A stretch of DNA of 64,000 nucleotides. Origin: Hordeum vulgare subsp. vulgare (taxonomy: Eukaryota; Streptophyta; Magnoliopsida; Poales; Poaceae). Positions 11,915 through 43,448 of this stretch are shown here, piece after piece (position 1 is the stretch's first letter; every line of letters begins with the position of its first letter). Made by a program: the position numbers and the translations under genes. Under the pieces are notes generated by a model. It saw nothing but the letters and a program-made list of their open reading frames with translations, was not told the origin of the DNA and searched no databases. The stretch is taken from contig NC_058518.1 of NCBI RefSeq assembly GCF_904849725.1, positions 325,336,581-325,400,580 on the forward strand, read 5' to 3'.

Positions 11915-12137
11915 ATTTCACTTTTGATTGCGTTAAATCCTTTGTTGAGACAAATACTTTTTGTGACTTTACGCTAAGTATGGACTTGACTCTGAGATAG
12001 TAGCTTCATTGTGTGAATCTTTTGTTGCTCATATTGATCTCCCCAAAGAGAAGTGGTTTAAATATCATCCTCCTTTATAAGTCAATGTAGATATACCCAC
12101 TCCAGTTGAAGAGAAAGTCATTGCCTATAATGATCCT

Positions 12138-16017: not shown

Positions 16018-16088
16018 GAAATTTTCTCTGTTTTGGATTATTTGAAAAAATACAAAAAATGGAAGAGTCCGGAAAGTGCGCGAGGAGG

Positions 16089-16217: not shown

Positions 16218-16300
16218 CTTCCGTTTGGTCTGACCCCGGCATCACGCAGATTTCTTCTGTTTTTCCTTTCGAGCTTGTTTCTGCGAAGATCTAGATCGCT

Positions 16301-20516: not shown

Positions 20517-22338
20517 TGTTGGAATTATGCCCTAGAGGCAATAATAAATATGTGTATTATTATAATTCATGTATCAAGATAATCGTTTATTATCCAAGCT
20601 ATAATTGTATTGAATGAAGACTTATATACATGTGTGGATACATAAACAAAACACTGTCCCTAGCAAGTCTCTAGTTGGCTAGCCAGTTGATCAAAGATAG
20701 TCATGGTCTTCTGATTATATACAAGGTGTTGTTGCTTGACAACTGGATCACGTCATTAGGAGAATCACGTGATGGACTAGACCCAAACTAATAGACGTAG
20801 CATGTTGATCGTGTCATTTTGTTGCTACCGTTTTCTGCGTGTCAAGTATTTGTTCCTATGACCATGAGATCATATAAATCACTGACACCGGAGGAATGCT
20901 TTGTGTGTATCAAATGTCGCAATGTAACTGGGTGACTATAAAGATGCTCTACAGGTATCTCTGAAGGCGTTTGTTGAGTTAGTATGGATCGAGACTGGGA
21001 TTTGTCACTCCGTGTGACGGAGAGGTATCTCGGGGCCCACTCGGTAATACAACATCACACACAAGCCTTGCAAGCAATGTGACTTAGTGTAAGTTGCGGG
21101 ATCTTGTATTACGGAACGAGTAAAGAGACTTGCCGGTAAACGAGATTGAAATAGGTATACGGATACTGACGATCGAATCTCGGGCAAGTAACGTACCGAA
21201 GGACAAAGGGAATGACATACGGGATTATATGAATCCTTGGCACTAAGGTTCAAACGATAAGATCTTCGTAGAATATGTGGGATCCAATGTGGGCATCCAG
21301 GTCCCGCTATTGGATATTGACCGAGGAGTCACTCGGGTCATGTCTACATAGTTCTCGAACCCGCAGGGTCTGCACACTTAAGGTTCGACGTTGTTTTATG
21401 TGTATTTGAGTTATATGGTTGGTTACCGAATGTTGTTCGGAGTCCCGGATGAGATCACGGACGTCACGAGGGTTTCCGGAATGGTCCGGAAACAAAGATT
21501 GATATATACGATGACTCATTTGATTACCGGAAGGTTTTCGGAGTTACCGGGAAAGTACCGGGAATGACGAATGGGTTCCGGATGTTCACCGGGGGGGAAA
21601 CCCACCCCGGGGAAGCCCATAGGCCTTGGGGGTGGCGCACCAGACCTTGGTGGGCTGGTGGGACAGCCAAGAGGGCCCTATGCGCCAAGGATAGAAAATC
21701 AAAGAGAAAAGAAAAAAAAGGAGGTGGGAAAGGAGAGAAGGACTCCACTTTCCAATCCTAGTTGGACTAGGATTGGAGGAGGACTCCTCCTCCCTTGGTG
21801 GCGCAGCCCTTGGGGCTCCTTGAGCATCAAGGCAAGCCTCCCCTCCCTCCTCCTATATATATGGAGCAATTAGGGCTGATTTGAGACAACTTTTCCAAGG
21901 CAGCCCGACCACATAACTCCACGGTTTTACCTCTAGATCGCGTTTCTACGGAGCTCGGGCGCAGCCCTGCCGAGATTAGATCATCACCAACCTCCGGAGT
22001 GCCGTCACGCTGCCGGAGAACTCTTCTACCTCTCCGTCTCTCTTGCTGGATCAAGAAGGCCGAGATCATCGTCGAGCTGTACGTGTGCTGAATGCGGAGG
22101 TGCCGTCCGTTCGGCACTAGATCGTGGGACGGATCGCGGGACGGTTCGTGGGACGGTTCGCGGAGCGGATCGAGGGACGTGAGGACGTTCCACTACATCA
22201 ACCGCGTTCACTAACGCTTCTGCTGTGTGATCTACAAGGGTACGTAGATCGGAAATCCCCTCTCGTAGATGGACATCACTATGTTAGGTCTTCGTGCGCG
22301 TAGGAAATTTTTTGTTTCCCATGCGACGTTCCCCAAAA
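20517..22338 (+). repeat. 5' LTR of the Angela-type element
   Basis: It starts TGTTGGAATTATGCC and ends CCCCAAAA; the last CA has mutated to AA compared with the other LTR. A TATA box (CCTATATATATGG) lies near 21847. Small ORFs inside are not genes. Confidence 0.95.
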
Positions 22339-22339
22339 G

Positions 22340-22352
22340 TGGCATCATGAGC
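22340..22352 (+). other. PBS of the Angela-type element
   Basis: TGGCATCATGAGC, a variant of the initiator-Met PBS typical of the BARE1/WIS/Angela group, directly after the LTR. Confidence 0.8.
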
Positions 22353-23593
22353 TAGGTACATGCGTAGATGTCTTCTCGAGTAGAACACAAAAGTTTTTGT
22401 GGGCGGTGATGTGCGTTTTGCTGCCCTCCTTAGTCTTTTCTTGATTCCGCGGTATTCTTGGATTGAAGCGGCTTGGACCGACAGTACTCGTACGCTTACG
22501 AGAGACTGGTTTCATCTCTACGAGTAACCCCCTTGCTCAAAGATGACTGGCAAGTGTCGGTTTCTCCAACTTTAGTTGAATCGGATTTGACCAAGGAGGT
22601 CCTTGTATAAGGTTAAATAGCAATTCATATATCTCCGTTGTGGTGTTTGCGTAAGTAAGATGCGATCCTACTAGATACCCATGGTCACCACGTAAAACAT
22701 GCAACAACAAAATTAGAGGACGTCGAACTTGTTTTTGCAGGGTATGCTTGTGATGTGATATGGCCAACGATGTGATGTGATATATTGGATGTATGAGATG
22801 ATCATGTTGTAATAGATAATATCGACTTGCACGTCGATGGTACGGCAACCGGCACGAGCCATAGGGTTGTCTTTAAACTAACGTTTGTGCTTGCAGATGC
22901 GTTTACTATTTTGCTAGGATGTAGCTTTAGTAGTAATAGCATGAGTAGCACGACAACCCCGATGGCGACACGTTGATGGAGATCATGGTGTGGCGCCGGT
23001 GACAAGAAGATCGTGCCAGTGCTTTGGTGATGGAGATCAAGGAGCACGTGATGATGGCCATATCATATCACTTATGAATTGCATGTGATGTTAATCCTTT
23101 TATGCACCTTATTTTGCTTAGAACGATGGTAGCATTATGAGGTGATCTCTCACTAAAATTTCAAGACGAAATTGTGTTCTCCCCGACTGTGCACCGTTGC
23201 TACAGTTCGTCGTTTCGAGACACCACGTGATGATCGGGTGTGATAGACTCAACGTTCACATACAACGGGTGCAAAACAGTTGCACATGCAAAACACTCGG
23301 GTTAAGCTTGACGAGCCTAGCATGTACATACATGGCCTCAGAACACATGAGACTGAAAGTTCGATCATGAATCATATAGTTGATATGATTAGCATAGGGA
23401 TGCTTACCCCTGGAACTATACTCAACTACCGTGATGATCGGACTTGAGCTAGTGTAAGTGGGTCATGAACCACTCAAATGACTAGGGAGATGTACTTTTT
23501 GAGTGGGAGTTTAGCAAGTAATTTAATTAAGTTAAACTCTAATTATCTTGAACATAGTCTAAGTCCACTTTGAATATATTTGTGTTGTAGATC
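22353..23593 (+). other. Long untranslated leader of the Angela-type element
   Basis: 1.24 kb between PBS and gag ATG without a supported gene. A long leader is typical of this group. Confidence 0.75.
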
Positions 23594-26500
23594 ATGGCTC
23601 ACGCAACAGTCACCCTGAATTTTAATACGTTCCTAGACAAAGCTAAGTTGAAAGATGATGGAAGCAACTTTGTAGACTGGGATCGTAATCTTAAGTTGAT
23701 CCTACAAGCTGGGAAGAAGGATTATGTCCTTAATTCTGCGCTAGGAGATGAACCACCCGCTACGACTGACCAGGATGTTAAGAACGCTTGGTTAACACAT
23801 AAGGAGGACTACTCAGTAGTTCAATGTGCAGTCTTGTATGGCATAGAACCGGGACTTCAACGTTGATTTGAGCGTCATGGATCATATGAGATGTTCCAGG
23901 AGTTGAAGTTTATCTTTCAGAAGAACGCCCGGATCGAGAGGTATGAGACCTCCGATAAATTCTATGCTTGCAAGATGGAGGAGAATTCGTGTGTCAGTGA
24001 ACATGTGCTCAAAATGTCTGGGTACTCAAACCGTCTAGCTGAGCTGGGGATTGAACTCCCGCAAGAGGCTATCACTGACAGAATTCTTCAATCACTGCCG
24101 CCAAGCTATAAGGGCTTTGTGTTGAACTACAACATGCAAGGGATGAACAAGTCACCCGGCGAGTTGTTTGCGATGCTGAAAGTCGCAGAGTCTGAACTCC
24201 GTAAAGAGCATCAAGTGTTGATGGTGAATAAGACCACTAGTTTCAAGAGAAATGGCAAAGGCAAGAAGGGTAATTCAAAGAAGATCGGCAAGCCTGTTGC
24301 CAATCCGACGAAGAAACCCGAAGCTGGACCTAAGCCTGAAACAGAGTGCTACTATTGCAAGGGTCTGGGTCACTGGAAGCGCAACTGCCCCAAGTATCTG
24401 GCTGATAAGAAGGCGGCCAAAGAAAAATCAGGTATATTTGATATACATGTTATTGATGTGTACTTAACCGGCTCTCATAGTAGTGCCTGGGTATTCGATA
24501 CCGGTTCTTTTTCTCATATTTGCAACTCGAAACAGGAAATGCAGAATAGGCGAAGGCTGGCGAAAGCTGAAGTGACGATGCGCGTAGGAAATGGTTCCAA
24601 GGTTGATGCAATCGCCGTCGGCACAGTTTCACTTCAGTTACCATCGGGATTAGTTATGAACTTGAATAATTGTTATTTAGTGCCTGCGTTGAGCATGAGC
24701 ATTATATCTGGATCTTGTTTATTGTGAGACGGTTACTCTTTTAAGTCAGAGAATAATGGTTGTCCTATTTCTATGAGTAACATCTTTTATGGTCATGCAC
24801 CCAATGTGAGAGGATTGTTCATATTGAATCTTGATAGTGATACACATATACATAACATTGAGACCTAAAGAGTTAGAGTTAACAATGATAGCGCCATGTT
24901 TTTGTGGCACTGCCGCTTAGGTCATATTGGTGTAAACCGCATGAAGAAACTCCATACCGATGGACTTTTGGAGTCACTTGACTTTGATTCACTTGACACG
25001 TGCGAACTATGCCTCATGGGAAAGATGAGTAAAACTCCGTTCTCCGGAACAATGGAGCGTGCCAGTGACTTGTTGGAAATCATACATACCGATGTGTGCG
25101 GTCCGATGAGCGTGGAGGCACGCGGCGGATATCGTTATTTTCTCACCCTCATTGACGATTTGAGTAGATATGGTTATGTCTACTTAATGTAGCACAAGTC
25201 TGAAGCATTTGAAAAGTTCAAGCAATTTCAGAGTGAAGTTGAAAATCATTGTAACAAGAAGATCAAGTTCCTACGGTCTGATCGTGGGGGTGAATATCTG
25301 AGTTTCGAGTTTGGTGCTCACTTAAGACAATGTGGAATTGTTTCACAGTTGACACCACCTGGAACACCACAACGTAATGGTGTGTCCGAACGTCGTAATC
25401 GTACTTTATTAGAAATGGTGCGATCTATGATGTCTCTTACCTATTTGCCGTTATCGTTTTGGGGTTATGCATTAGACACAGCTGCATTCACTTTAAATAG
25501 GGCACCATCAAAATCCGTTGAGACAACACCATACGAACTGTGGTATGGCAAAAGGCCAAAGTTGTCGTTTCTTAAAGTTTGGGGATGTGATGCTTATGTC
25601 AAAAAGCTTCAGCCTGAAAAGCTGGAACCCAAAGCGGAAAAGTGCGTCTTCATAGGTTACCCAAAAGAGACAGTTGGGTACACCTTCTATCTCAAATCCG
25701 AGGGCAAAGTGTTTGTTGCTAAAAACGGAGCTTTTCTCGAGAAGGAATTTCTCTCGAGAGAATTGAGTGTGAGGAAGATAGAACTTGATGAGGTTGTCGA
25801 ACCTCTCATCCCTCTGGATGGTGGCGCAGGGCAAGGGGAAACCCCTGTCGTTGCGACGCCGGTTGGGGAGGAAGTTAATGATGATGATCATGAAACTCCG
25901 GTTCAAGTTCCTATTGAACCACGCAGGTCGACGAGACCACGTGCTGCTCCAGAGTGGTACGGTAATCCCGTTTTGTCAATCATGTTGTTAGACACCAATG
26001 AACCTCCAAATTATGAAGAAGCAATGGTGGGCCCAGATTCCAACAAATGGCTGGAGGCCATGAAGTCCGAGATAGGATCCATGTATGAAAACAAAGTGTG
26101 GACTTTGGAAGTACTACCTGAGGGCCGCAAGGCCATTCAGAACAAATGGATCTTTAAGAAGAAGACGGACGCTGACGGCAATGTGACCGTTTATAAAGCT
26201 CGACTTGTGGCAAAGGGTTTTTCACAAGTTCAAGGAGTTGACTACGATGATACATTCTCACCCGTAGCGATGCTTAAGTCCGTCAGAATCATGTTAGCAA
26301 TAGCTGCATTTTTCGATTATGAAATCTGGCAGATGGATGTCAAAACGGCGTTCCTTAACGGTTTCCTTAAGGAAGAGTTGTATATGATGCAACCCGAAGG
26401 TTTTGTCGATCCTAAGAATGCTAACAAGGTGTGCAAGCTCCAGCGATCCATTTATGGACTGGTGCAAGCATCTCGGAGTTGGAACAAACGCTTTGATGAG

Positions 26501-27574
26501 GTGATCAAAGCATTTGGGTTTATACAAGTGGTTGGAGAATCTTGTATTTACAAGAAAGTGACTGGGAGCTCTGTGGCGTTTCTAATATTATATGCGGATG
26601 ACATATTGCTGATTGGAAACAACGTAGAGTTTTTGGAGAGAATAAAGGATTACTTGAATAAAAGTTTCTCTATGAAGGACCTAGGAGAAGCTGCTTACAT
26701 TCTAGGCATTAAGATCTACAGGGATAGATCGAAACGCCTGATAGGACTTTCACAAAGCACATACCTTGATAAAGTTTTGAAGAGGTTCAAAATGGAACAG
26801 TCCAAGAAAGGGTTCTTGCCGGTTTTACAAGGTACGAGATTGAGTAAGACTCAGTGCCCAGCAACTGATAAGGATAGAGAGCATATGAGCACCGTCCCCT
26901 ATGCTTCAGCCATAGGTTCTATCATGTATGCAATGTTGTGCACTAGACCGGACGTTAGCCTGGCCATAAGTATGGCAGGCAGGTTCCAGAGTAATCCAGG
27001 AGTGGATCACTGGACGGCGGTCAAGAGTATCCTGAAGTACCTGAAAAGGACTAAGGAGATGTTTCTCGTGTATGGAGGTGACGAAGAGCTCGCCGTAAAG
27101 GGTTACGTCGATGCAAGCTTTGACACGGATCCGGACGACTCTAAGTCGCAGACCGGATACGTATTTATTCTTAATGGGGGTGCGGTAAGCTGGTGCAGTT
27201 CCAAGCAAAGCATCGTAGCTGATTCTACATGTGAAGCGGAGTACATGGCTGCCTCGGAGGCGGCTAAGGAGGGTGTCTGGATGAAGCAGTTCATGACGGA
27301 TCTTGGAGTGGTGCCAAGCGCACTGAATCCAATAACCTTGTTCTGTGACAACACGGGTGCCATTGCCTTAGCAAAGGAACCACGGTTTCACAAGAAGACG
27401 AGACACATCAAACGACGCTTCAACCTCATCCGCGACTACGTCGAAGGGGAGGACGTAAATATATGCAAAGTGCACACGGATCTGAATGTAGCAGACCCAC
27501 TGACTAAACCTCTTCCACGGGCAAAGCATGATCAACACCAGAACTGTATGGGTGTTAGATTTATTACAATGTAA
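23594..27574 (+). pseudogene. gag-pol of the Angela-type element (one frame, four stop codons)
   Basis: A single reading frame from ATG 23594 to the TAA at 27572, interrupted only by stops at 23864 (TGA), 24725 (TGA), 24866 (TAA) and 25190 (TAG); no frameshift. In order: gag; zinc knuckle CYYCKGLGHWKRNC (near 24350); protease WVFDTGSFSH (24490); GAG-pre-integrase HCRLGHIGVNRMKKL with CELC; integrase D (HTDVCGP), D (LRSDRGGEYL), E (RNGVSERRNRT); RT with YADDILLIG (near 26590, usually YVDD); RNase H (GYVDASFDTD, AEYMAASEAAKEGVW). As it stands it cannot make a full polyprotein. Confidence 0.93.
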
Positions 27575-27611
27575 TTCGCATGATGATGTGAGGGCTAGAT
27601 TATTGACTCTA

Positions 27612-27626
27612 GTGCAAGTGGGAGAC
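27612..27626 (+). other. Polypurine tract of the Angela-type element
   Basis: GTGCAAGTGGGAGAC directly before the 3' LTR, the BARE1-type PPT. Confidence 0.8.
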
Positions 27627-29448
27627 TCTTGGAATTATGACCTAGAAGCAATAATAAATATAGTTATTATTATAATTCCTGTATCAAGATAATCGTTTAT
27701 TATCCATGCTATAATTGTATTGAATGAAGACTTATATACATGTGTGGATACATAGACAAAACACTGTCCCTAGCAAGTCTCTAGTTGGCTAGCCAGTTGA
27801 TCAAAGATAGTCAGGGTCTTCTGATTATATACAAGGTGTTGTTGCTTGATAACTGGATCACGTCATTAGGAGAATCACGTGATGGACTAGACCCAAACTA
27901 ATAGACATAGCATGTTGATCGTGTCATTTTGTTGCTACTGTTTTCTGCGTGTCAAGTATTTGTTCCTATGACCATGAGATCATATAACTCACTGACACCG
28001 GAGGAATGCTTTGTGTGTATCAAACTTCGCAATGTAACTGGGTGACTATAAAGATGCTCTACAGGTATCTCCGAAGGTGTTCGTTGAGTTAGTATGGATC
28101 TAGACTGGGATTTGTCACTCCGTGTGACGGAGAGGTATCTCGGGGCCCACTCGGTAATACAACATCACACACAAGCCTTGCAAGCAATGTGACTTAGTGT
28201 AAGTTGCGGGATCTTGTATTACAGAACGAGTAAAGAGACTTGCCGGTAAACGAGATTGAAATAGGTATACGGATACTGACGATCGAATCTCGGGCAAGTA
28301 ACATACCGAAGGACAAAGGGAATGACATACGGGATTATATGAATCCTTGGCACTGAGGTTCAAACGATAAGATCTTCGTAGAATATGTGGGATCCAATAT
28401 GGGCATCCAGGTCCAGCTATTGGATATTGACCGAGGAGTCACTCGGGTCATGTCTACATAGTTCTCGAACCCGCAGGGTCTGCACACTTAAGGTTCGACG
28501 TTGTTTTATGCGTATTTGAGTTATATGGTTGGTTACCAAATGTTGTTCGGAGTCCCGGATGAGATCATGGACGTCACGAGGGTTTCCGGAATGGTCCGGA
28601 AACGAAGATTGATATATAGGATGACCTCATTTGATTACCGGAAGGTTTTCGGAGTTACCGGGAATGTACCGGGAATGACGAATGGGTTCCGGATGTTCAC
28701 CGGGGGGGCGACCCACCCCGGGGAAGCCCATAGGCCTTGGGGTGGCGCACCAGCCCTTGGTGGGCTGGTGGGACAGCCCAAGAGGGCCCTATGCGCCAAG
28801 CATAGAAAATCAAAGAGAAAAGAAAAAAAGGAGGTGGGAAAGGAGAGAAGGACTCCACTTTCCAATCCTAGTTGGACTAGGATTGGAGGAGGACTCCTCC
28901 TCCCTTGGTGGCGCATCCCTTGGGGCTCCTTGAGCCTCAAGGCAAGCCTCCCCTCCCTCCTCCTATATATATGGAGCAATTAGGGCTGATTTGAGACAAC
29001 TTTTCCAAGGCAGCCCGACCACATAACTCCACGGTTTTACCTCTAGATCGCGTCTCTGCGGAGCTCGGGCAGAGCCCTGCCGAGATTAGATCATCACCAA
29101 CCTCCGGAGCACCGTCATGCTGCCGGAGAACTCTTCTACCTCTCCGTCTCCCTTGCTGGATCAAGAAGGCCAAGATCATCGTTGAGCTATACGTGTGCTG
29201 AACGCGGAGGTGCTGTCCGTTCGGCACTAGATCGTGGGACGGATCGCGGGACGGTTTGTGGGACGGTTCGCGGGGCTGATCGAGGGACGTGAGGACATTC
29301 CACTACATCAACCGCGTTCACTAACGCTTCTGCTGTGCGATCTACAAGGGTACGTAGATCGGAAATCCCCTCTCGTAGATGGACATCACCATGTTAGGTC
29401 TTCGTGCGCGTAGGAAATTTTTTGTTTCCCATGCGACGTTCCCCAACA
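27627..29448 (+). repeat. 3' LTR of the Angela-type element
   Basis: 1822 bp; starts TCTTGG (TG mutated to TC) and ends CCCCAACA. TATA near 28964. Followed by TSD AGTTG at 29449-29453. Confidence 0.95.
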
Positions 29449-30130
29449 AGTTGAACAGGGACCGGACGTCCGGAGAAGGATGGAAGTCCGAGTTATTCGA
29501 CTCAAACTTCTGTGGTGCAAGATTCCGGTTTTCCGAAAGGGGACGGACGTCCGGCCCTCGGACGTCCGGAGGGAGCCAGAAGTCCGAGTTATATGGCTCA
29601 AGTTCTTTTGGTGCAGAGCTCTGGATTTCCGAAGCTGGTCGGTCGACCGGTCCTCGGATGTACGGAGGGAGCCGGAAGTCCGAGTTATATGGCTCAAGTT
29701 CTTCTGGTGCAGAGCTCCGGATTTCCGAGGCTGGTCGGTCGTCCGACCCTCGGACGTCCGGAGGAGGCCGGATGTCCGAGGCATTAGTTCTGTTTTGAGA
29801 TAAGAGCAGAGTGGTGAAGATGTGGTATGAGCAGAAAAGTAGAGATGTAGTATGAGCAAATTCATCGCAAAACCTGTGATCCCCTCTTAATAGTGCGGGA
29901 TCCCTATACTCAAGAATAGTAAACTTTAAAGGATAGTCTACATCATCTTTTCTCAATCCCGAGCCTTCTTGACATATAAGTCCCGATCTTCTTAGACCAC
30001 CTTGGCACATAATTCTCAATCTACTAAAGTACTTGCCATCCTGAGATACACTCAACAAATAGGATTAGTTTCCTATGTATGTGTTGTCATTAACACCAAA
30101 GGTCGATTAGGGGCATGACATGCACTTTCA
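29449..30130 (-). repeat. 3' LTR of element C, remaining part
   Basis: It resumes after Angela with GAACAGGGACCGG and ends at TTTCA (30130), which on the minus strand is the LTR start TGAAAGTGCATG. It contains several CGGACGTCCG-type palindromes (29461-29782). It matches 42515-43190. Confidence 0.92.
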
Positions 30131-30541
30131 ATCTCCCCCTTTTTGGTAGTTGATGACAACATATAATAGGTCTCAAAATATTTAACATACATTATAGCCT
30201 TGGATAGGTTTAGTACGGAGCTCCCCCTTAGTATGTGCATGATAAAATATCGGAGCTCCCTTTTAATGTGTGTATCGAAAATATCATGTGACTTATCATG
30301 TGACTTAGTAAAGATAATGGATCATAATAGAAGTAGTGGAGCAAAACATAATAGCCTATGATGATATCATAGCAATCCATAGCAATCACACTATTCATAA
30401 GTAGCCATACATGGGTTTATCCATTACATTACACAAACATGCAAATTGAGACTAAATCTCCAAAGACTAAAAACTACGATACATTACTCCCCCTTTGGCA
30501 CCAAGTACCAAAAATGGAGGCACCAACAGCATCAACCATGC
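30131..30541 (-). other. PPT and 3' untranslated region of element C
   Basis: On the minus strand AAAAAGGGGGAGAT (30131-30144) is the PPT next to the 3' LTR. The rest is non-coding. Two further purine runs (GGGGGAGC type near 30222; AAAGGGGGAGTAAT near 30485) resemble extra PPTs, a known Sirevirus trait. Confidence 0.7.
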
Positions 30542-32104
30542 TCAGAGATCATCAGCATCATCATCATCATCATCCTCATCGTCAGGCAAGCCACTGCCAC
30601 CAGCCTCGTCAAGAAAATCAGCCCACTCAGGACCAGATGGGAAACCGAAGTCAGAAGGAGGAGCAGCAGGAAGGGCCTCGTCGTCACTCACATCAAGAGC
30701 GCCCGAGTCTCTCAGACGAGCCTTGAGGGCATTCTTGGAGGAGATGAGGCGAGAAACCACATCATGAGTTTGACCACACTGGAAAGAGAAGGCCTTCATC
30801 ATAGCAGAATGTGCCTTGCCAATGAATTTGGCAAAGTGACCGAGAGGAGTTGGGCTGGATGAAGGGGTTGCTGACCAGGTAGCAGTGCGGCGAGTGGAGG
30901 TGGATGATGGGGTTTTCTTGGGAGCATAGTTATCCGTCATGTGAGCGGGAATGACCCACTTGTGATGTGTGTGAGTGACAGCAACAGTGAATTCAGCAAC
31001 ATGGTTAATAAAAGCCTGGATGAAGGGGGCATGAGGGAAGGCTCGCTTGTATTGAAAACTAGCAAGCCGACTCTCATGCCATAGAAAGTGAGGCACATTA
31101 ATTTTGCTCTTGGGGTGCTAGTACAAATGTGACATGATGTCAATACAGTAGCCACTTCAAGATCCCTTATCACCCATCTTAGGATAGATGGTGCGGATAA
31201 GACACTGAAAGATGATAAAGTAGGGCGAGCGCCAGATGGACACTTGGTTAAGATCCTTCATTCGTTCGTCTGCATCTAGTTCACGGAGTGGTTTGAGAAG
31301 ATACCCACACGCCTCAATTGGCTTATGTGCATGGTTAGGATCATTCTTATGGATTTTGAAACCGGAGTTGGGGAAACCAAGTGCGGAAACAATCTCATCA
31401 TAAGAGGTTGTGAACTGAACGTCAGAGGTTATCCAGCTAACAGTGTTGTTTGGACCAAAGAAACATGTGGCATAAAACTGGTGAATAGCAGCAGCGTTAA
31501 AATCGCGATGAAAAGCAAAGGGGGCAGCAAGCCCTGATGACTCAATGAGCTCAACGGCACCCGGGTATTTTGCCGGGTGCGTGCGAATATGCTCAACATC
31601 TATAAAGTGATGGACAGAGAGACCCTTAGGAACTATGACCGTAGTGAAGATGTCCGCCTGGACGTTTGTGCGGAAACGTGAGTCCATAGAGTCACGTACA
31701 ACAGAGAATTGATCAACGTCGCAGCGGAAAGTGAGGTAGGAAGACTTAGCAACCGTGGTGAAGTTCTTGACTTCACGACCTAAAGTAGCAGGAGGTTCAA
31801 GTGAGATGCGACGAGCTTCACCTTCGGGCTGTTTAGGAGGAGGTGGTGGCATATAGGAGGGCCTGCGAGTCCCAGGCTTTGGCATAGACTTCCGAAGGGC
31901 GGACTGTTCTGCACTGTCCTCTGCTGCAAGCTCATCCTCGAAGTCAGAGCCATCAGACAATGAGGGGAGCTGTTGAGGCGGAGGACTCCGGGAAGTCCAT
32001 TTGAAGGGACGACGTTGCCCTTCCGAGTCCAACCCCGTGCCAGTAGGGGCACGAGCGGATGAGCCAGCAGTGTCCTTCCGGGCGGCGTGCTTAATCTTGG
32101 GCAT
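30542..32104 (-). pseudogene. Third ORF of element C (after pol), two in-frame stops
   Basis: The frame is open from 32230. The likely start is MPKIKHAARK at 32104, after a GC-rich leader. The frame continues to 30542 across a TGA (31157) and a TAG about 40 bp further on, so it was once about 520 codons. The N-terminal third is low-complexity and proline-rich. The middle (NAAAIHQFYATCFFGPNN, WITSDVQFTTSYDEIVSALG) resembles, from memory, the putative plant transposon protein/ATHILA ORF1-type domain. The C terminus is acidic (DDEDDDDDDADDL), encoded by an ATC microsatellite. I see no membrane segment, so the usual label env-like is not supported. Confidence 0.6.
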
Positions 32105-32407
32105 GATGAACAAAAGCCTACACGGATGGAAACCCAATGGGGAACGGTCATGGTCAAACCATATGAACGAACACGTGGACTTGGGAGAAAAGGGAACCAA
32201 ACGCGAGGGGAACGGAGAAGATACCTGCACATCGAGAGAGGAGAGGAAGGGGAGACTGATCCCGCGGGGGAGATCGGATCCCGCGGAGGGGATCAGCCAG
32301 ATCCCAGAGGTGGCGGCGCGGGCGAGCTCCCCTGGTGCTGGCGGCGGCGGCGGCTGGGAGAAAAGGAGGCGCGTGGGGGCTAGGGCAAGGCCCAGCCCAC
32401 ACCCTTC

Positions 32408-32545
32408 TATTTATAGGCCCCCTGATGTGTCGGACGTCCGACAGGCGTCGGACGTCCGGAGTGGATTTAGCCGTCGGACGACCAACACTGGCCGGACGTC
32501 CGGAATGAGTTTAGCCGTCGGACGTCCGAGACACGTCGGACGACC
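32408..32545 (-). promoter_or_regulatory. Internal promoter-like module of element C: palindromes plus TATA upstream of the third ORF
   Basis: Between pol (ends 32794) and the third ORF lie several CGGACGTCCG-type palindromes (about 32428-32545). They are followed on the minus strand by CCTATAAATAG (32408-32417) and a GC-rich leader to the ATG at 32104. This is the order found in the LTR of the same element. Promoter activity is inferred. Confidence 0.55.
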
Positions 32546-32793
32546 GAGAGAGGAGTAGGCAGAGGCTGATTCTGGAATTTGGATGATGAGATGATTTGTC
32601 ATGGTTTATCACAAAGAACACGAACACAGTTGGCTACAAGAATTACATATACTACTTGTGGACAGAAGTTGATTTATGTATATTTTGTAAGATCAAAACA
32701 CAGAATTATGACGTAAGTCCTAGTGACTCCCCCTAAATGCATGCCCACATTAAGACAAGAACATAATGTGAGTGCGTGTATGTGTGCAAGATT

Positions 32794-35700
32794 TCAAGTT
32801 ATGTTATCAAGCTCCAAGATACTAAGTTCACACCTAAGTTGACAGAACCTTGCTACACTAAGTGGCTTGGTGAAAATGTCAGCGAGCTGCATGTCGGTAC
32901 CCACATGGGTAATATCAATGTCACCCTTTGGCACATGGTCTCTCAAGAAATGGTACCTAATATCAATATGTTTTGTGCGAGGGTGATCAATGGGGTTCTC
33001 AGAGATCTTTATGGCACTTTCATTATCACAGAGAAGAGGCATGTGTCGTTACGTGATACCATAATCCTTTAGGGTTTGCCTCATCCATAGCAGTTGGGTT
33101 GCATAGCTTGCGGCTGTAATATATTCGGCCTCAGCCGTGGAGAGAGAAACACAATTCTGCTTTTTCGAGGACCAACTTACCAAGGAGCGTCCAATAAACT
33201 GACATGCACCGGAAGTGGATTTCCGTCCCACTTTGTCACCGGCCCAATCCGCATCGGAGTACCCAATAAGATCGAACTTTGCATCCTTAGGGTACCATAA
33301 GCCTAACTTTGGGGTCTGAACAAGGTATCTAAGAATATGCTTAACCGCCGTATGATGGCTTTCCCTAGGGGAAGCTTGAAATCTAGCACATATGCCTACA
33401 CTTAACATGATGTCCAGTCTAGATGCGCAAAGATAAAGTAACGAACCAATCATGGAGCGGTAAGTAGATGGGTCAAAAGGAATACCGTTGGTGTCTTCAT
33501 TTAGAACTACATCTGTGGCCATGGGTGTCTTCATTGGTTTAGCATTTGTCATATCAAATTTTTCAAGAATGTCCTTGAGGTACTTAGTTTGAGACAAGAA
33601 AACTCCTTCTTGAAATTGTTGTATTTGAAACCCAAGAAAGAACTTCAAGTCCGTGTTGAGTGACATCTCAAAGGTCTTGGTCATGGAGGCCGCAAACTTC
33701 TTGCATAAATGGATGTTAGGAGAACCAAAAATGATGTCATCTGCATAGATTTGGCATAAGATCAATCACCATTTTCCCTCTTAGTAAAAAGAGTGGGATC
33801 GATCACCCCCACCACAAAGCCATCATTGAGTAAGAACTTCTTAAGATGATCGTACCAAGCACGGGGTGCTTGTTTGAGGCCATACAGAGCCTTGTGAAGT
33901 TTGTATACATGGTCTTTTGTGGTGAGGGTCAACAAACCCAGGTGGTTGTGATACATATACCTCTTCTTGTAGAGGACCGTTAAGAAAAGCACTTTTCACA
34001 TCCATTTGATGCAAAGTAAAACCATTGAAAGCAGCATAGGCCAATAGAATGTGAATGGATTCAAGACGAGCAACAGGGGCGAAAGTCTCACCAAAGTCCA
34101 AACCTTCAACTTGGGAGTACCCCTGTGCTACTAACCTTGCCTTGTTGCGTAGGACGGTCCCATTCTCATCTTCCTTGTTCTTGAAGATCCATTTAGTTCC
34201 AATGACATTGTGTTCCTCAGTTGGTCGTTCTACCAATGACCATACTTCGTTGCATGTAAAAATGTTTAACTCTTCTTGCATAGCAAGGAGCGAGTCATTG
34301 TCACACAATGCATCCTGAACCCTGTGTGGCACGGTACTAGATACAAACGAAAAGTGAGCACGAAAGTTTGTTAATTGTTTACGAGTCACTCTACCTTCCC
34401 ACACGCCGGTGAGGATTTGATCAATATCAACACGACCGGCCACACGTGGCATGATGGAGGTCAGGGTTTCACGAGGTTCGAATTCGTTTCCATAATCAAG
34501 GTCCTCAACATATGGATCATTTACGTGCGGTGGCAGATATTCCTCTTTGCGTTGCACCTGTTGAGGTTCATCATCAAGCATATCCATACTTTGGTCTAGC
34601 CCTTGAAGATCAACTTGTTCTTGAGTGTGATCATAATGAGAGACATGTTCTCCCATTTGATCCTCAACAACTGGCATGATATGTGTGCTAGTATCTTGTG
34701 GAGGTACGGGCAGTGAACTGTCTTGAGGATGAGAAACACTCTCGTCATCTTCATCATCATCATGGGGTCTTTGTTCCATGGGAAGAAGTGCACCTACACC
34801 CATGTTCAAGATATCTTGCGAGGAATCTTCTTCACCTGCATCACTTAGATCAACTTGCTCCCCATGGGAGCGGTTAAATTCATCAAACGTTACGTCACAG
34901 GTTTCTATAACAAATCCAGTGGATTTGTTGTAGACTCTGTAGGCGTGAGAGTTTGATCCATAGCCAACAAAAATCCCTTCAGTTGTTTTGGATTGAAATT
35001 TTCCTAACCGTTCCCGTTTGTTGAGGATGAAACACTTGCATCCAAACACACGAAAGTACTTAACATTGGGCTTGTTCCCAGTTAGGAGCTCATATGGAGT
35101 CTTCTCCAATATTGATCGAAGGAAGAGCCGGTTTGATGCATGACATGCTGTGTTGACAGCCTCAGCCCAAAAACTATGTGGTGACTTGTATTCGTCTAAC
35201 ATGGACCTTGCCATTTCCACAAGTGTCCGGTTCTTCCTCTCTGCTACACCATTTTGCTGAGGGGTATAAGGTGCGGAGTACTGATGTTCAATTCCCTCAT
35301 CACTAAGAAATTCTTCTAGGGTGTAGTTCTTGAACTCGGAGCCATTATCACTTCTTATTGGCTTGATGTCCTTGTCAAACTTCCGCTGGACTTGTTTGGC
35401 AAAATCAATGAAGGTGATCTTCGTCTCGTCCTTGGACTTGAGAAAGAATACCCATGTGTATCTTGAGTAATCATCAACAATGACTAGGCCATAATTTTTC
35501 CCTCCAAGACTTGCCCATGAAGGAGGCCCAAATAGATCCACATGAAGGAGCTCTAACGGCCTTGAAGTGGATACAATGTTCTTGGGTGGATGTTTTGATT
35601 GATGTTGTTTCCCAGCTATGCATGCACTGCACACACGATCTTTCTTAAAAGATACATGTGTTAGTCCAAGGATGTGATTGTCGTTTAAGATATTTTGAAG

Positions 35701-36160
35701 ATTTCTCATGCCGACATGGGCGAGCCGGCGATGCCACAACCATCCCATGTCGGCCTTGGCCATTAGACAAGTTGTATGGAAGGTGCTCTCTTTCAAGAAA
35801 TCAACCGTGTAAAGGTTGCCATCCAACTCTCCAACAAAGGCCACTTCGAGACTGTCTCTCTTAAAGACTTTCACATCCGTTAGTCTGAATAATGTGTCAT
35901 AACCAACGGAAGCCAATTGGCGAACTGAAAGTAAATGATATTGAAGAGATTGGACAAGCATGACATTTGCAAGAGACATGTCATTAGTGATTGCCACCTT
36001 GCCCAACACAATTACCTGCCCTTTCGACCCTCCACCAAATACAATGCTCATGTATGGTCGAATGGCTTGCATGAAGTCATAGAGCAAGTTACTATCTCCG
36101 GTCATATGATTGGTGCATCCACTGTCGATCACCCATTTGGCTCCTCCGGAGAAAACAGCC
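32794..36160 (-). pseudogene. pol of element C: protease, integrase, RT, RNase H (frameshifted)
   Basis: The main open piece is 36132 to 33841: protease [16 protein letters not shown]-pre-integrase [13 protein letters not shown] with CSACIAGKQ, integrase D ([10 protein letters not shown]), D (IRSDNGSEF), E ([11 protein letters not shown]), an acidic linker, and the start of RT ([21 protein letters not shown]). Frame shifts near 33920 and 33765 lead to the YADDIIFG box (usually YVDD) and RNase H (GYSDADWAGD, ADIFTKPL), with a TAA at 33043. Non-functional. Confidence 0.85.
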
Positions 36161-36169
36161 TGTAACGAA

Positions 36170-38729
36170 TTAAGACTTGCTTTGAGGTGCCCATTTCGTC
36201 ATGGGGCCTCTCAAATTAGTTACAAGAGTCTTAGGGACCCAAATAGCATAAAATCGGAATGCATTACGGGGACCAACGAATTTAGCATAAACCTCTCCTT
36301 CCTTTGATTTGCGAAGTACATAGGATGGAGGCATGAATTCAGTTGTCTTGTTGAGAATAGGCGAACCCCTAGTGGTCGACCCACTCTCAACCTTACCTTT
36401 CTCCTTGTGTCCCTCTCGTACAAATATTTTCTTTAAGCGGAGTGGTACACTTGAGAGGAGATGCACTTTTCTTGGCAGTGCTTGGATTGAACCCAAGCCC
36501 TTCCTTGGCAAAGCCTCCATTGTGTTGACTTAAGATCTGATTGAGAGTCTTTTGTCCTTGTGCACATGTCATGAGACCTCTATCTAGTTGTGCCTTTAGC
36601 GAACAGTTTTCCTCAAGGATAGATGTCAGTTCACTACTAGAGTTAGTAGTGTAGGCATCAACATTAATAATAGGTGAGGAGTAAGCCTTAGCTAAAGTGT
36701 CAAGATAAGTAACCTTGAGTGCATCAAAGCTCTTTGTAAGAACAGTGAGTTTCTCTTCCTTGTCTTTGAGAGACAAGGATATACGCTCATAGTCCTTAGA
36801 AAGGGAAGCACGAGAGTTCACTAGTCGGTTTTTATCATTTAGTAACTCTTTGCACACAGATTCAGCCTTTTTCAAGGAGGCAAGATCGTTAGCATGTTTA
36901 TCAAGGTTTTCACCAACTTTTGAGCATAATGCATCATTTTGTGCTTCCTCTTACAGGACTTTCTGCTCAAGGATTTCATTTCTTTCCTTCTCCTCGGTGA
37001 CGAGGGTTTCGAGTTCCTTGATGGTATTGGTGTGCTTACTCACCATTTCCATAAGTATGCGAAACATAGTGAGCTTCTTTCCTTTAAGAGAGCACATAAA
37101 TTTGTTTATTTTGGCAAACATGGGATGATCTAAGTCATTATCCTCATAGTGATCTTCCACATCAAGATACTCATCAGGTGAGGTAGATGCTAGACTGAAA
37201 GAGTTTAACCGTGGAGTTACCTTAACCTTATCATGGGAGCTTTGGTCTTCCTCATCTCCCATGGCAGTCTTTGCCATCAAATACTTGTGGGTGTTGCCCT
37301 TGTAGTCTTTCATATAGTTGTAGTGAACAACATCACCACTTTTGTTGACTAGCCTCAAGGTGTTTTGTGTATCCTGAGCTACTCCGGAAACCCCACCAAC
37401 GTCTTCTGGATCTGATTCTTCTTATGCAACCATTGCTCTTCCATCTATTCTATTGAGCTTGGAGTTCATAGGGTTTGGCAACTTCTTCTTTACAAAGGTA
37501 TTCGGAAACCTTGGTCTATCTTCTCTCTTCTCATAAGGACAGCCATTGGAGAAGTGGTTGGTTTCCTCACAGTTGTAGCATTTCCTTACCTTCTTCTTTG
37601 GGAATCTTCCCTTGAATTTTCCTGCACTGAACTTCTTTACAAAGAGAGCAATGTCCTCATAAGATGGGCTTTCACCAGAGTCAACATCATCACCATCTTC
37701 GTAGTCATCATCACCCTCTTCTTCCTCACTTTCTTCTTCATCACATTCATGCTTGGCTTTCAAAGCAAGATTGATCTTTGATGTTGAAGTGCCATGCATG
37801 GCAAGGTGCTTTGTTGCATTTGCCTTTGACTCTTCAAATAATTGGAAAGTGGATATGATGTCATCTGGAGTCATTTCTTTGAACCCATGGTGTTGCCTCA
37901 TGTCCCATACCATTTGATGGTGGTACGGAGCAAGAGCATGAAGTAACTTGTCCACGAGAAATCTCTTGGTTAGATTGAAACCATCTTGCGTCTTGTCACA
38001 GTCATAGGACTCAATGTCTGCGGCGAGAGTCATGAGTGGTTCTAGCAGTTGCTTGGGAGATTCACCCTTTTCCATACAGAAATTCTGTAATTGCCCCTTG
38101 GCAATTTCATATTGAGCAAGCCGAAGAGTGGAGGTACCGGTCTTGGTCCTTATAATGCTATTCCACAGTTCCTTGGCACTTGTGATGTGAATGTAAGGTC
38201 TCTGTTGCTTTTCATTCATTCCTTTTCTTATGCACATGATCGCAGTGTCATTGAGATGCTTGTCATAAGTTTCTCTGGGAGTGAGGCACCTTGGATCTAC
38301 AGGATTGTACCCATGCTCGAGGATGTCCAACATCTCATCATTGGCGTACCTAAGATGATCCTGCATACCAACTCTCCACAAAGCAAAATCAGAATTGTCA
38401 TCAAGCAAGGGAGGTTTTCCTCCAGGATTGTACTTAGGTTTCTCAACTTGAGATCTAGCATAAAGCCATGGAACACTGGTTTGGTTCCTCTCCGGAGGTT
38501 GTTGGCCATATGAAGAACCGTGCACATGTGGCCCTAAAGCCCTCGGGGACGTGGTTGTCCCCGTGGTTAATGATGCCAGTCTTATTTGGACCAAGGCCTC
38601 AAGAGAAGCATCATGCTCCTCTTTTTGCTTGGCAAGGGCCCGTTCCAGGTCCTCACAGGTGAAGGACTTGACTTTCGTGGAAGTCCCGTCCCTCTCCACT
38701 TGAGCTACAATAGTGGGAATCCCATCCAT
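36170..38729 (-). pseudogene. gag of element C (long Sirevirus-type gag)
   Basis: ATG at 38729. One frame runs to about 36430 with stops at 37422 (TAA) and 36951 (TAA), then shifts frame into 36520-36170. The N-terminal region contains LERALAKQKEEHDASLEAL, the capsid-like part follows, then an acidic linker, a zinc knuckle CYNCEETNHFSNGC (near 37560) and a coiled-coil C-terminal extension (LKDKEEKLTVLTKSFDALK). Gag this long with a coiled coil after the knuckle is a Sirevirus trait. Confidence 0.82.
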
Positions 38730-38766
38730 CTCGCTCTAGGGCGGTTAAGCCATAAGAATAGAGCAC

Positions 38767-38782
38767 GGGGCTCTGATACCAA
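38767..38782 (-). other. PBS of element C (initiator tRNA-Met)
   Basis: Minus strand TTGGTATCAGAGCCCC, one base from the LTR edge at 38784. Confidence 0.9.
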
Positions 38783-39960
38783 TTGAAAAGGATCGAGATG
38801 GACCTAGAGGGGGGCTGAATAGGTACAGTTCCAAATTTTAATGATTACTTAGCAATTTTAGGCAAAGTTGCGGAATATGAGCGTAGGCCTAATAATTGCT
38901 ATGACAAGGAGTAAGCTATTTAGAGTGAAGTAAGGCAACTGGTAAACAATAATCAAATACAAGTACGTAATAAGGATTAACACAAGTAGAGAGTTAGGGT
39001 TAGGAATAACCGAAACTCCAAGAGAGACGAGGATGTATCCCGATGTTCACTTCCTTGGAGGGAAGCTACGTCACCGTTAGAGGGGCGGATGTTACCACGA
39101 AGGCACACCAACGCCACGAAGGCTCACCCTATTCTCCCTTTGAGATAACTCCACGAAGGCGTTTCTCAACCACTAGTGGTAAGCCTTGAGGTGGCTTCCA
39201 AACCTTCACAAACTTTCCGGGGAAAATCACAATGTTTTGATTCCTCTCCGAAGACTCCTACCGCCTAGGAGTCTCCAACCTCCAAGAGTAACAAGATCAC
39301 GGGGATTGCTCAAAACTTGCTCAAATCACAAATCACTTTGGTGGAGAGGAGGAGAAGGAGACGATCTATCTTTTTATTGGAACAACACTCAAAAGGACTC
39401 ACAAATGCTCTTGGGATCTAAGATTGAGTGTAGACAAGAGTGAGTGAGAAGAAAGGTGTTCTTGTATGTGTTCTAGCTGTGTTGGATACCCTCTCATGAA
39501 GTGGGGGGTATATATAGTGGGGAGTGTTGAAAAGGACGTGGATGTCGCCTAGAGGGGGGGTGAATAGGCGCTTTAAAAAGGTTAAGGATTAGGCTTGAAC
39601 AACTGCGGAATAAAACTAACGTTTAATATGTCAAGCACAAAACCTACAAACAACTAGGCTCACCTATGTGCACCAACAACTTATGCTAAGCAAGATAAAC
39701 AACTAAGTGATAGCAAGATATATTACAATAAACAATATGTCTATCACAAAGTAAAGTGCATAAGTAAAGGGTTCGGGTAAGAGATAACCGAGGCACGGGG
39801 AGACGATGATGTATCCCGAAGTTCACACCCTTGCGGATGCTAATCTCCGTTAGAGCGGTGTGGAGGCACAATGCTCCCCAAGATGCCACTAAGGCCACCG
39901 TAATCTCCTCACGCCCTCGCACAATGCAAGATGCCGTGATTCCACTAAGGGACCCTTGAG

Positions 39961-40108
39961 GGCGGTCACCGAACCCGTACAAATGGCAACCCTTGGGGGC
40001 GGTCACCGAACCCGTACAAATGGCAACCCTTGGGGGCGGTCACCGAACCCGTACACGTGGCAACCCTTGGGGGCGGTTACCGGTACCCCTACAAATTGCT
40101 CGGGGCAA
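39961..40108 (+). repeat. 37-bp tandem repeat in LTR D (four copies)
   Basis: GGCGGTCACCGAACCCGTAC-type units start at 39961, 39998, 40035 and 40072; the last is diverged. Confidence 0.85.
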
Positions 40109-40679
40109 TCTCCACAACCTTATTGGAGACCCCGACGCTTCCCGGAGCTTCACACCACAATGATTGAGCTCCGAGACACCACCAAGCTTCTAGGACGCCA
40201 AAGCATCCACGAAGAACAATATCAAGGGTACTAAGTACCGAAGGTAGTAAGCTTCTCAACTTCTCACTTCCACGTATCACCGTGGAGAACTCAAACCGAT
40301 GCAACTAATGCAATGGCAAGAACACACGAAGTGGTCAAGTCCCTCACACTCAAATCCCTCCACAACAACAAAAGCTATGGAGAAATATGAGAGGAAGAAC
40401 AAGGAGCTCACAAAGAACTCCAAGATCAAGATCCAAGGGGTTCCCCTCACATAGAGGAGAAAGTGATTGGTGGAGATGTGGATCTAGATCTCCTCTCTCT
40501 TTTCCCTCAAGAGCAAGCAAGAATCATTGGAGGGATTGAGAGTAATCAAGCTCTAAGAATGTCAACAATGGAGGTAGAACAAGAGCTCAACGGATAGGAT
40601 CAGGCAAGGGGGAAGAAGACCCCCTTTATATAGTGGGGGGAAGAATCAGACCGTTACCCCCACTCTCTGCCTGAGCTCC

Positions 40680-41018
40680 AGCGGTACTACCGCTGGCTGC
40701 AGCGGTACTACCGCTGTTACTCCAGCGGTACTACCGCTGGGCCCCTGGTAGTGCAAAGGCACTACCACCGCCAAGAAAGTCTTCGCAAAAAGGTTCGTCC
40801 ACGAACAACCGCTAGGCAGGTGGTACTAAGCTCCTGGAGCGGTACTACCGCTGACCAGGGGCGGTACTACCGCGAGCCAGCGGTACTACCGCTAGGGCCA
40901 GCGGTACTACCGCCAACTCTAGCGGTACTACCGCTAGGTCGAGCGGTACTACCGCTAGGTCCAGCGGTACTACCGCTAGGTCGAGCGGTACTACCGCTAG
41001 GTCCAGCGGTACTACCGC
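40680..41018. repeat. Palindromic array GCGGTACTACCGC in LTR D (12 copies)
   Basis: Twelve copies of the near-perfect palindrome GCGGTA-C-TACCGC. The last five (from 40921) have a regular 21-bp period with alternating spacers AGGTCG and AGGTCC. The array lies directly upstream, on the minus strand, of the TATA near 40625. The repeated-peptide ORFs across it (AVLPLG or AVVPLD units) are a by-product. Confidence 0.93.
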
Positions 41019-41668
41019 TCGCCACTGAAACAGCCATAACTTTCGCATACGAGCTCCGAATCGAGCAAACCCAAGCTTGTTGGATTCAGGATGACAAGGG
41101 CTATCCAAACAGAGACTGGAAATCTTAATACCATGCGGTTATGAATATGCCAAAGATATAGAGATGTGAGATCTCTATGAATGAAGAACCGGCAAAAACT
41201 CCAACATCGAAAACATCATAGTAGATGCATATGGACTCCGTTTTCGATGAACTCGAGCTTGTCATGAAGATGACCATAAGCTCTAAAACTCACAAAGAGA
41301 AACACCAACTAAGAACCAAGAAGTATGATGCAAGGATGCAAATGGTTTGAGCTCTCAACGAACGATACGATCAAGCTACTCACTTGAGAGCCCCCCTTGA
41401 TAGAACAACAATCTATCCTAACCAGAAAACCTATCAAGGGCAAACCTATACCTTGCACCTCATCCTCTTGAGCTAGATGATGATGATCTTGGCTTCCTCA
41501 AGATGGACCACCTTTCTTGATTGTGTTGGCTTGATGAATACTAGTTGATTGCTCCCCCATACTCACTATGGGTGAGCCACTCTTCAGCATATCTTCACAA
41601 GTCCATTGCCACCATAATGGACGGCAAGCTTCAAGCATGCTATCTTCGTGAACTTGCACGTCGCAATC

Positions 41669-42158
41669 TTGATGACGATCACAACTTGACGTCATACTCC
41701 ATGGGTTGTATGAGATCTTCCCTTTGACGCAAGCTCATGGAAACACACCTAACCCCCACATAGAACTCTCACGAAGACCATGGGTTAGTACACAAACACG
41801 TAATGGACAATGCTTACCATACCATGGAATCACTTGATCCCTCTCGGTACATCTTGTACGCTTTGTGTGTTGATCAACTTGGTTTACTCTTTGTCTGAGA
41901 TCTTGATCAACCATTGATGATGATCACAACTTGACGTCATACTCCATGGGTTGTATGAGATCTTCCTTTTGACGCAAGCCCATGTAAACACACCTAACCC
42001 CCACATAGAACTCTCACGAAGACCATGGGTTAGTACACAAACACGTAATGGACAATGCTTACCATACCATGGGATCACTTGATCCCTCTCGGTACATCTT
42101 GTACGCTTTGTGTGTTGATCATCTTGATTTACTCTTTGTCTGAGATCTTGATCAACCA
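41669..42158. repeat. 245-bp tandem duplication in LTR D
   Basis: 41669-41913 and 41914-42158 are nearly identical (both begin TTGATGAYGATCACAACTTG). Confidence 0.9.
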
Positions 42159-42403
42159 TGTCTCTCTATGACCATTCTTTGGATAATACCTTGGATACCA
42201 TCTTGGTCATCATATAAACTCCTTGAACCCAACAGATGGACTTCAAGAAGTGCCTATGGACAAATCCTATAAATGTAACTTAAGGCAACCATTAATCCAT
42301 AGGAATTGTCATCAAGTACCAAAACCACATATGGAGATATATGCTCAATATATGCTCCAACAAGTGTAAAACAGCCGTTGGGGACACTTTAAGTCACACA
42401 GGG

Positions 42404-42835
42404 GTCGGACATCCGGCAGTTCACGGATGTCCGGGCGTCCACAAGGAGTCGGACGTCCGACATGGGTCGCTCGTCCGAGGGCTGTAGATATGTATGGAAT
42501 CACTATGGAGTTGAACAGGGACCGGACGTCACGAGAAGGCCGGAAGTCCGAGTTATTCGACTCAAACTTCTCTGGTGCAAGATTCCGGTTTTCCGAAAGG
42601 GGACGGACGTCCGTCCCTCGGACGTCCGGAGGGAGCCGGAAGTCCGAGTTATATGGCTCAAGTTCTTCTGGTGTAGAGCTCCGGATTTCCGAAGGTGGTC
42701 GGTCGACCGGCCCTCGGACGTCCGGAGGGAGCCGGAAGTCCGAGTTATATGGCTCAAGTTCTTCTGGTGCAGAGCTCTGGATTTCCGAGGCTGGTCGGTC
42801 GTCCGACCCTCGGACGTCCGGAGGAGGCCGGATGT
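42404..42835. repeat. CGGACGTCCG palindrome cluster in the LTR of element C
   Basis: Many exact or near copies of CGGACGTCCG and CGGACATCCG, with larger segmental repeats of about 110 bp (the GAGCCGGAAGTCCGAGTTAT unit recurs). The same cluster lies in the 3' LTR, split by Angela (20407-20482, 29461-29782), and a smaller one inside the element (32428-32545). Confidence 0.9.
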
Positions 42836-43190
42836 CCGAGGCATTAGTTCTGTTTTGAGATAAGAGCAGAGTAGTGAAGATGTGGTATGAGCAGAAAAGT
42901 AGAGATGTAGTATGAGCAAATTCATTGCAAAACCTGTGATCCCCTCTTAATAGTGCGGGATCCCTATACTCAAGAATAGTAAACTTTAAAGGATAGTCTA
43001 CATCATCTTTTCTCAATCCCGAGCCTTCTTGACATATAAGTCCCGATCTTCTCAGACCACCTTGGCACATAATTCTCAATCTACTAAAGTACTTGCCATC
43101 CTGAGATACACTCAACAAATAGGATTAGTTTCCTATGTATGTGTTGTCATTAACACCAAAGGTTGATTAGGGGCATGACATGCACTTTCA

Positions 43191-43448
43191 TCCTCCTATA
43201 AGACTTTGTCTAGGCTTGTCCCTTGCTACAAAAGGGATTGGGCAACCTTGCTGCACCGTTTCTACTTTTGTTACTTGTTGCTTGCTACGAATCATCTCAC
43301 CACACAATCACTTGTTACTGACTATTTCAGTGCTTGCAGATATTTCCTTGCTGAAAACCACTTGTCAGATCCTTCTGCTCCTCGTTGGGTTCGACGCTCT
43401 TACTTATCGAAAGGGCTACGATTGATCCCCTATACTTGTGGGTCATCA
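43191..43448 (+). repeat. 3' LTR of element B, second part
   Basis: It continues 10873-11133 of the 5' LTR and ends GGGTCATCA at 43448. The first five bases (TCCTC) are C's TSD. CCCAT follows as B's own TSD. Confidence 0.92.

Follow-up and report, generated by a model that had tools for sequence, protein, structure and literature searches.

The window analysed here, a 64,000-nucleotide (nt) stretch of barley (Hordeum vulgare subsp. vulgare; NC_058518.1, positions 325,336,581 to 325,400,580 of the forward strand), consists of nested retrotransposons. One of these, the minus-strand element C, belongs to the Sireviruses (Ty1/Copia) and carries a third open reading frame (ORF3) in the env-like position. 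We propose, with a probability of roughly 0.7, that an internal RNA polymerase II (Pol II) promoter yields a spliced ORF3 mRNA inside this Usier-like Sirevirus. A gap of ~0.7 kb separates the pol stop codon (32796) from the ORF3 start codon (ATG, 32104) and houses a cluster of palindromic boxes followed by a TATA box; a 107-nt leader intron lies just upstream of the ATG (Table 1). At the level of genomic sequence, comparison between copies shows the boxes, the TATA, their spacing and the intron boundaries to be conserved, and the intron to be lost precisely.

In the proposed mechanism, the module would form the 5' end of ORF3's own transcription unit. The palindromic boxes would serve as upstream elements, as is thought for the long terminal repeat (LTR), and TATAAATAG, located 15 nt past the boxes, would set the start some 30–40 nt further downstream. 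The transcript would open with a GC-rich 5' untranslated exon of ~150–180 nt, after which the 107-nt U-rich intron would be removed, placing the ORF3 AUG 13 nt past the splice junction. From time to time, reverse transcription would act on RNA that has already lost this intron, giving rise to intronless copies.

Palindromic boxes and a TATA box precede ORF3

Both the box cluster and the TATA lie far above chance expectation. At up to one mismatch, CGGACGTCCG occurs 29 times in the window, against 0.75 expected from dinucleotide shuffles: five of these boxes lie at 32431–32546, 23 in the LTR pieces of C and one at 5735. A sixth module box, with two mismatches, is found at 32484–32475. As a local control, 32380–32600 contains five boxes, compared to a shuffle mean of 0.04 and a maximum of 2 (1000 shuffles). 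TATAAATA occurs three times on the window's minus strand and falls within the next 60 nt at 0.28% of minus-strand points. A CpG-rich stretch runs from the boxes into ORF3.

An earlier sequence-only reading of the window had stated that such palindromes are otherwise confined to the LTRs of C, which holds for the exact box (13 occurrences, four in the module and nine in LTR pieces). It had placed a TATA at 32408–32417; the motif is present on the minus strand, but its true position is 32415–32407, about one base off. The GC-rich leader that it described is real, with 61% GC between 32430 and 32104, and the ATG lies where it was placed. That reading also envisaged an internal promoter for the extra ORF. 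The position of the module suits such a promoter, and at least three boxes are found in 98 of 100 copies; that transcription starts at the TATA, that the boxes control it and that the spliced RNA is ORF3 mRNA is inferred.

The module is shared by related copies

The module, then two ORF3 relatives and then an intronless leader served as queries against the genome from which the window comes. This gave 110 loci, comprising 40 close copies, 40 more distant ones (via the two ORF3 relatives) and 30 obtained through the intronless leader. Seven loci without a recognisable ORF3 start (L033, L078, L094, L095, L110, L114 and L116) and three duplicates (L048, L068 and L075) were removed, leaving 100 distinct copies, the window's included.

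In the module search, all 40 scored places (from 1345 first-look candidates) match at 92–100%. TATAAATAG is exact in 35 of the 39 other close copies, and six boxes at two mismatches or fewer are likewise found in 35 of the 39. At least three boxes are present in 98 of the 100 distinct ORF3 copies, and 94 have a TATA-like site 14–18 nt past the last box, as scored with a broad pattern (TATAAA, TATATAA, TATAAG, TATAGA or TATGAA). Six copies were scored without such a site. Three of them (L026, L060 and L065) have an altered TATA, and L061 has TATAAG by eye, the script having been misled by a chance box-like match. In the remaining two, L049 and L121, another LTR element is inserted in the leader where the boxes would be. 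Both cases were seen by eye, and the insert of L121 matches the window's Copia LTR. Three further distant copies, with 57–60% identity to the ORF3 query, contain the box cluster and the 3' intron end; TATAAATAG is present in two of them, and the third has CATATAATT, which lies outside the scored pattern. Separately, boxes and TATA are present in the distant copies L058 and L069, whose leader is unlike that of other copies and whose intron is not callable.

The sequence-only reading had proposed to check the conservation of the module, and had named two outcomes that would speak against it: a module in this copy only, or one derived from a stray LTR fragment. Presence in nearly all related copies, by the counts given above, speaks against the former, and the box-masked comparison below against the latter. 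We consider it highly improbable that a displaced piece of LTR, or an oddity of this copy, accounts for the module. The box type is the same as that of the LTR, and an unmasked local alignment to U3 scores 41, above the shuffle maximum of 31. With the boxes masked, however, the U3 score is 15, a value that all 300 shuffles equal or exceed, and the score against the U3 end, R and U5 is 24 (equalled or exceeded by 21 of 300), so that the masked module has no clear LTR similarity. The module moreover occupies the same position in nearly all related copies examined. On the box-masked scores and this recurrence, we reject a stray LTR fragment or single-copy oddity.

Conservation within the module was measured in 71 intron-bearing copies, from which the divergent or interrupted copies L049, L052, L058, L061, L066 and L069 were excluded. 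These 71 copies are mutually related and mostly of one group; alignment columns are thus not independent, and p-values serve only as a guide. Mean pairwise identity is 0.933 in the box cores, compared to 0.838 in the inter-box spacers (p 0.038). The TATA reaches 0.966 and TATAAATAG is exact in 61 of the 71 copies, with values of 0.890 for exon 1, 0.880 for the intron and 0.838 for the upstream linker. Of the 169 CpG-free 9-mers in the leader, only 9 match or exceed the TATA in conservation. CpG columns are better preserved in the boxes (0.924) than in the leader (0.823; p 2e-5), although methylation would be expected to erode CpG.

Does the box cluster act through its structure rather than as a promoter? 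The palindromes could matter as RNA hairpins or silencing targets, with the TATA incidental. The predicted fold of the 156-nt module is far more stable than those of shuffled versions (z –6.16; none of 200 as stable), and palindromic structures in the LTRs of maize Sireviruses have reportedly been the subject of a study. However, the TATA is kept at a constant distance from the boxes, and the box clusters in the window's LTRs likewise precede a TATA. The order of boxes then TATA is thus common to the module, the LTR of C (49 nt past the last box in the left LTR) and an Inga-type solo LTR inserted in C (26 nt). We regard a purely structural role as improbable.

A leader intron with exact, probably repeated loss

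The leader intron is a feature that the sequence-only reading missed, as it did the two in-frame stops that break ORF3 in the window copy. In the 71 intron-bearing copies the GT is kept in 69 and the AG in 70, and the length is 106–109 nt throughout. The T content of the intron is 36%, compared to 20% for exon 1. Thus GT–AG boundaries, a U-rich interior and exact loss in retrocopies, as described below, are all found.

The first copies without the intron were L048, L068 and L075, in which precisely the intron stretch is absent; all three belong to the set of 40 distant copies, whose selection had nothing to do with that property. With the intronless leader as query, 26 places align straight across the junction, where other copies split. 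At least 23 distinct intronless copies were verified, 22 with an exact join and one, L115, a single base short. As intronless copies were deliberately sought, this number is no measure of their share in the genome. One 25-base junction sequence of the leader type found in C has four exact matches in the genome, and five exon-2 leader variants are found both with and without the intron. In the more distant copies L052, L066 and L146, a GT–AG stretch of 113 nt or similar length lies at the same place with diverged sequence; therefore the intron predates its losses. The last base of exon 1 is not G in 8 of 22 intronless copies but in only 5 of 73 intron-bearing ones (p 0.0015, 15 positions tested), a pattern as expected if splicing holds that base. 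Copies missing exactly the intron suggest that splicing is real, and we consider leader splicing well supported by these genomic comparisons.

How often the intron was lost was assessed on a maximum-likelihood ORF3 tree of 66 rows (43 intron-bearing and 23 intronless), which omits L057–L076 and L077–L095 for having too little ORF3. The intron states of L140 (L052) and L096 were set by hand; L104, L020, L021, L026, L035 and L140 are long rows, and the bootstrap is unsettled. With these caveats, intron state requires 12 changes on the tree, nine of them forced by starred branches, and none of 200 bootstrap trees has a single change. The intronless L120 and the intron-bearing L143, for instance, are sisters (100/95). 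Spliced RNA was thus probably reverse-transcribed repeatedly, as judged from the distribution of intron states.

Two observations concern the reading frame of the leader. When the open frame upstream of the ATG was searched as a protein, there was no match at E 10, and therefore no sign of a coding leader. An upstream ATG at 32232, which would be in frame after splicing, was considered as support for the intron and dropped: it is private to the window copy among the 40 close copies, 38 of the other 39 having ATC and one ATT.

Alternative routes of ORF3 expression

Several points weigh against an internal promoter that produces a spliced ORF3 mRNA. Most of the copies examined come from one related group, with non-independent columns. 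Identity inside the intron (0.880) is not appreciably below that of exon 1 (0.890), and some other GTs of the leader (32172, 32121 and 32133) are kept as well as the donor; therefore conservation alone would not prove the intron. The strong RNA folding of the box cluster also fits a role at the RNA level. Recombination between copies may have moved leaders, and 12 changes on the tree need not equal 12 splicing events. Lastly, boxes and TATA are retained in 22 of 23 intronless copies, and therefore the reverse-transcribed RNA started upstream of the internal promoter. Such copies are proof that a longer RNA was spliced, but not that transcription begins at the internal TATA. Their source is either spliced genomic RNA that was reverse-transcribed, or a reverse transcriptase that switched between genomic and spliced ORF3 RNA.

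These last points lead to the main rival, in which ORF3 would be expressed by splicing of the LTR-driven genomic RNA, as proposed for the env of BAGY2 and Athila, and the boxes and TATA would be idle internally or a remnant. The intronless copies do show that a long RNA is spliced here, a pyrimidine-rich AG near 32355 is a possible acceptor, and splicing is a known route for other plant env-like ORFs, according to two papers (PMC2829016, PMC7264820). However, upstream sequence joined to ORF3 at the AG of 32355 was found in 0 of 100 copies, and this AG is kept in 77% of the 71 intron-bearing copies, compared to 99% for the intron acceptor. Nor did any copy show an upstream donor joined to the leader. 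The boxless copies L049 and L121 carry the inserted LTR element in that place. Moreover, this route leaves the constant 14–18 nt spacing between boxes and TATA unexplained. We thus judge it unlikely, though clearly less so than a structural role of the palindromes.

The internal promoter may also be one half of a larger arrangement. Tentatively, Sireviruses of this group could run two transcription programmes, an unspliced genomic RNA from the LTR and a spliced subgenomic ORF3 mRNA from a TATA promoter with the same palindromic control boxes as the LTR, both being switched by one factor; template switching between these RNAs in the course of reverse transcription, or packaging of spliced genomic RNA, would then repeatedly give rise to intronless elements. 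We regard this extension as possible but doubtful.

Relation to known elements

A survey published in 2010 describes nine Sireviruses in which box clusters occur in the LTR and again ahead of ENV, and there an internal promoter was suspected, the idea finding support, but not conclusively identified (PMC2829016). The module before ORF3 is thus a Sirevirus trait, known in kind. The sequence-only reading had seen in it an independent convergence with a Ty3/Gypsy element of the window, which we take to be the one with a short extra ORF starting at ATG 16302. We reject this idea, as the trait had already been described in Sireviruses and no GC-rich palindromic boxes were counted near that ORF in 250-nt bins across 16000–16749.

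The closest match is Usier, for which the survey gives the motif GTCGGACGTCCGAC, six times before ENV and 12 times in the LTR, a total length of 11.77 kb, an LTR of 1.57 kb, a linker of 1.84 kb and an ENV region marked by a very long CpG island (PMC2829016). Element C likewise has six boxes before ORF3, agrees with the GTCGGACGTCCGAC consensus, and is CpG-rich from the boxes into ORF3; its LTR measures ~1.57 kb and the whole element ~11.8 kb (summed from self-comparison coordinates). The LTR boxes are somewhat more numerous in C, with CGGNNNNCCG counted 14 times in the left and 15 times in the right LTR. The linker of C is ~1.1 kb (pol stop to ATG plus ORF3 end to LTR), a difference that depends on the ENV start used. 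In the available part of its description, the TATA of Usier is given only for the LTR and no leader intron is mentioned (PMC2829016), whereas C has an internal TATA and an intron.

When comparing C with other plant elements, partial parallels emerge. According to PMC7264820, gene23 of maize Grande has a promoter of its own; like ORF3 of C, it is an additional frame of a plant LTR retrotransposon, placed between pol and the 3' LTR. However, Grande is a Ty3/Gypsy element with the ORF antisense to gag-pol, whereas C is Ty1/Copia with a sense ORF. Barley BARE, which likewise belongs to Ty1/Copia, contains a small intron of 104 nt and 37.5% U whose donor is CAG/GTAT (PMC3735527), much like the 107-nt intron of C with its CAG/GTAT donor and ~36–37% T. 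The spliced form of BARE is reported as not found as DNA (PMC3735527), whereas here at least 23 distinct intronless copies are present in the genome. SIRE1 and BAGY2 illustrate other ways of expressing an env-like third ORF in plant retroelements, by stop-codon suppression and by splicing respectively (cited in PMC2829016). Read-through as in SIRE1 does not apply to C, because ~0.7 kb with boxes and TATA parts pol from ORF3.

No description of a TATA in this position or of a leader intron was found in the open-access PMC literature, subscription papers lying outside this search. As far as searched, the fixed TATA and the 107-nt leader intron with repeated exact loss are therefore the new part. 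The route by which Sireviruses express their third ORF has been unsettled ever since the idea of an internal promoter was raised. The present analysis offers a precise candidate start (~32386–32374), an intron that can be scored in RNA reads, and a natural experiment in copies that lack exactly the intron. If our interpretation is true, a plant retrotransposon would use two coordinated promoters, and its spliced RNA would find its way back into the genome, in contrast to the report on BARE. Should the reading with two programmes also be true, the genome would record how often spliced RNA entered replication.

Element C and its surroundings

Assignment of C to the Sireviruses rests on several features. 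Gag and pol domains lie at the expected places, and rve (residues 190–291) is followed by RVT_2 (628–742) in one frame, which is the Copia gene order (Pfam). Multiple polypurine tracts precede the 3' LTR (three of the AAGGGGGAG type and one weaker), CGG–CCG palindromic boxes lie upstream of the LTR TATA, and a sense third ORF follows pol, a frequent but not universal Sirevirus feature. The first 315 codons of ORF3 gave no Pfam hit at E values up to 1. Used as a query, they yielded 27 protein homologues, two of them named (Hordeum vulgare and Aegilops geniculata). Relatives of the locus were also sought in viral contigs and in bacterial and archaeal genomes, and none was confirmed.

Table 1. 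Features of element C in the window, with emphasis on the region upstream of ORF3.
Feature	Position	Strand	Remarks
ORF3, env-like position	30545..32104	-	~519 codons, broken by two in-frame stops in the window copy
Cluster of six palindromic boxes, CGGACGTCCG type	32431..32546	-	one box with 2 mismatches
TATA box TATAAATAG	32407..32415	-	15 nt past last box
Predicted initiation zone	32374..32386	-	pyrimidine-purine steps 29–41 nt past TATA start; prediction only
Leader exon 1	32225..32406	-	GC-rich, low T; 5' end provisional
Leader intron, 107 nt	32118..32224	-	CAG/GTATCT ... GTGTAG/GC; GT-AG kept; absent as a block in at least 23 copies
Leader exon 2, up to ATG	32105..32117	-	13 nt
Internal region of C	30137..38785	-	between LTR pieces (self-comparison); gag and pol domains by Pfam
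5' LTR of C	38786..43196	-	pieces 42363–43196 and 38786–39527; self-comparison
3' LTR of C	29449..30136 (first piece)	-	remainder 19627–20516; self-comparison
Polypurine tracts 3' of ORF3	30496–30487, 30229–30221, 30144–30132; weaker 30264–30256	-	before 3' LTR

Both LTRs of C are interrupted, and within them the boxes are arranged in tandem units of ~96 nt (29463–29780 and 42523–42840). The 5' LTR is split by the Inga-type solo LTR (39528–42362), which is flanked by a 5-bp target duplication and carries 12 CGGTASTACCG boxes found nowhere else in the window, with its TATA 26 nt past them; a 245-nt tandem pair lies inside it at 41669–42158. In the 3' LTR sits a second Ty1/Copia element (20519–29451), whose LTRs are 1.8 kb long and 96.7% identical. 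Element C itself is hosted within the 3' LTR of the Ty3/Gypsy element (9644–43448, pol 12081–16014), whose short extra ORF is preceded by TATATATA ~90 nt upstream of its ATG.
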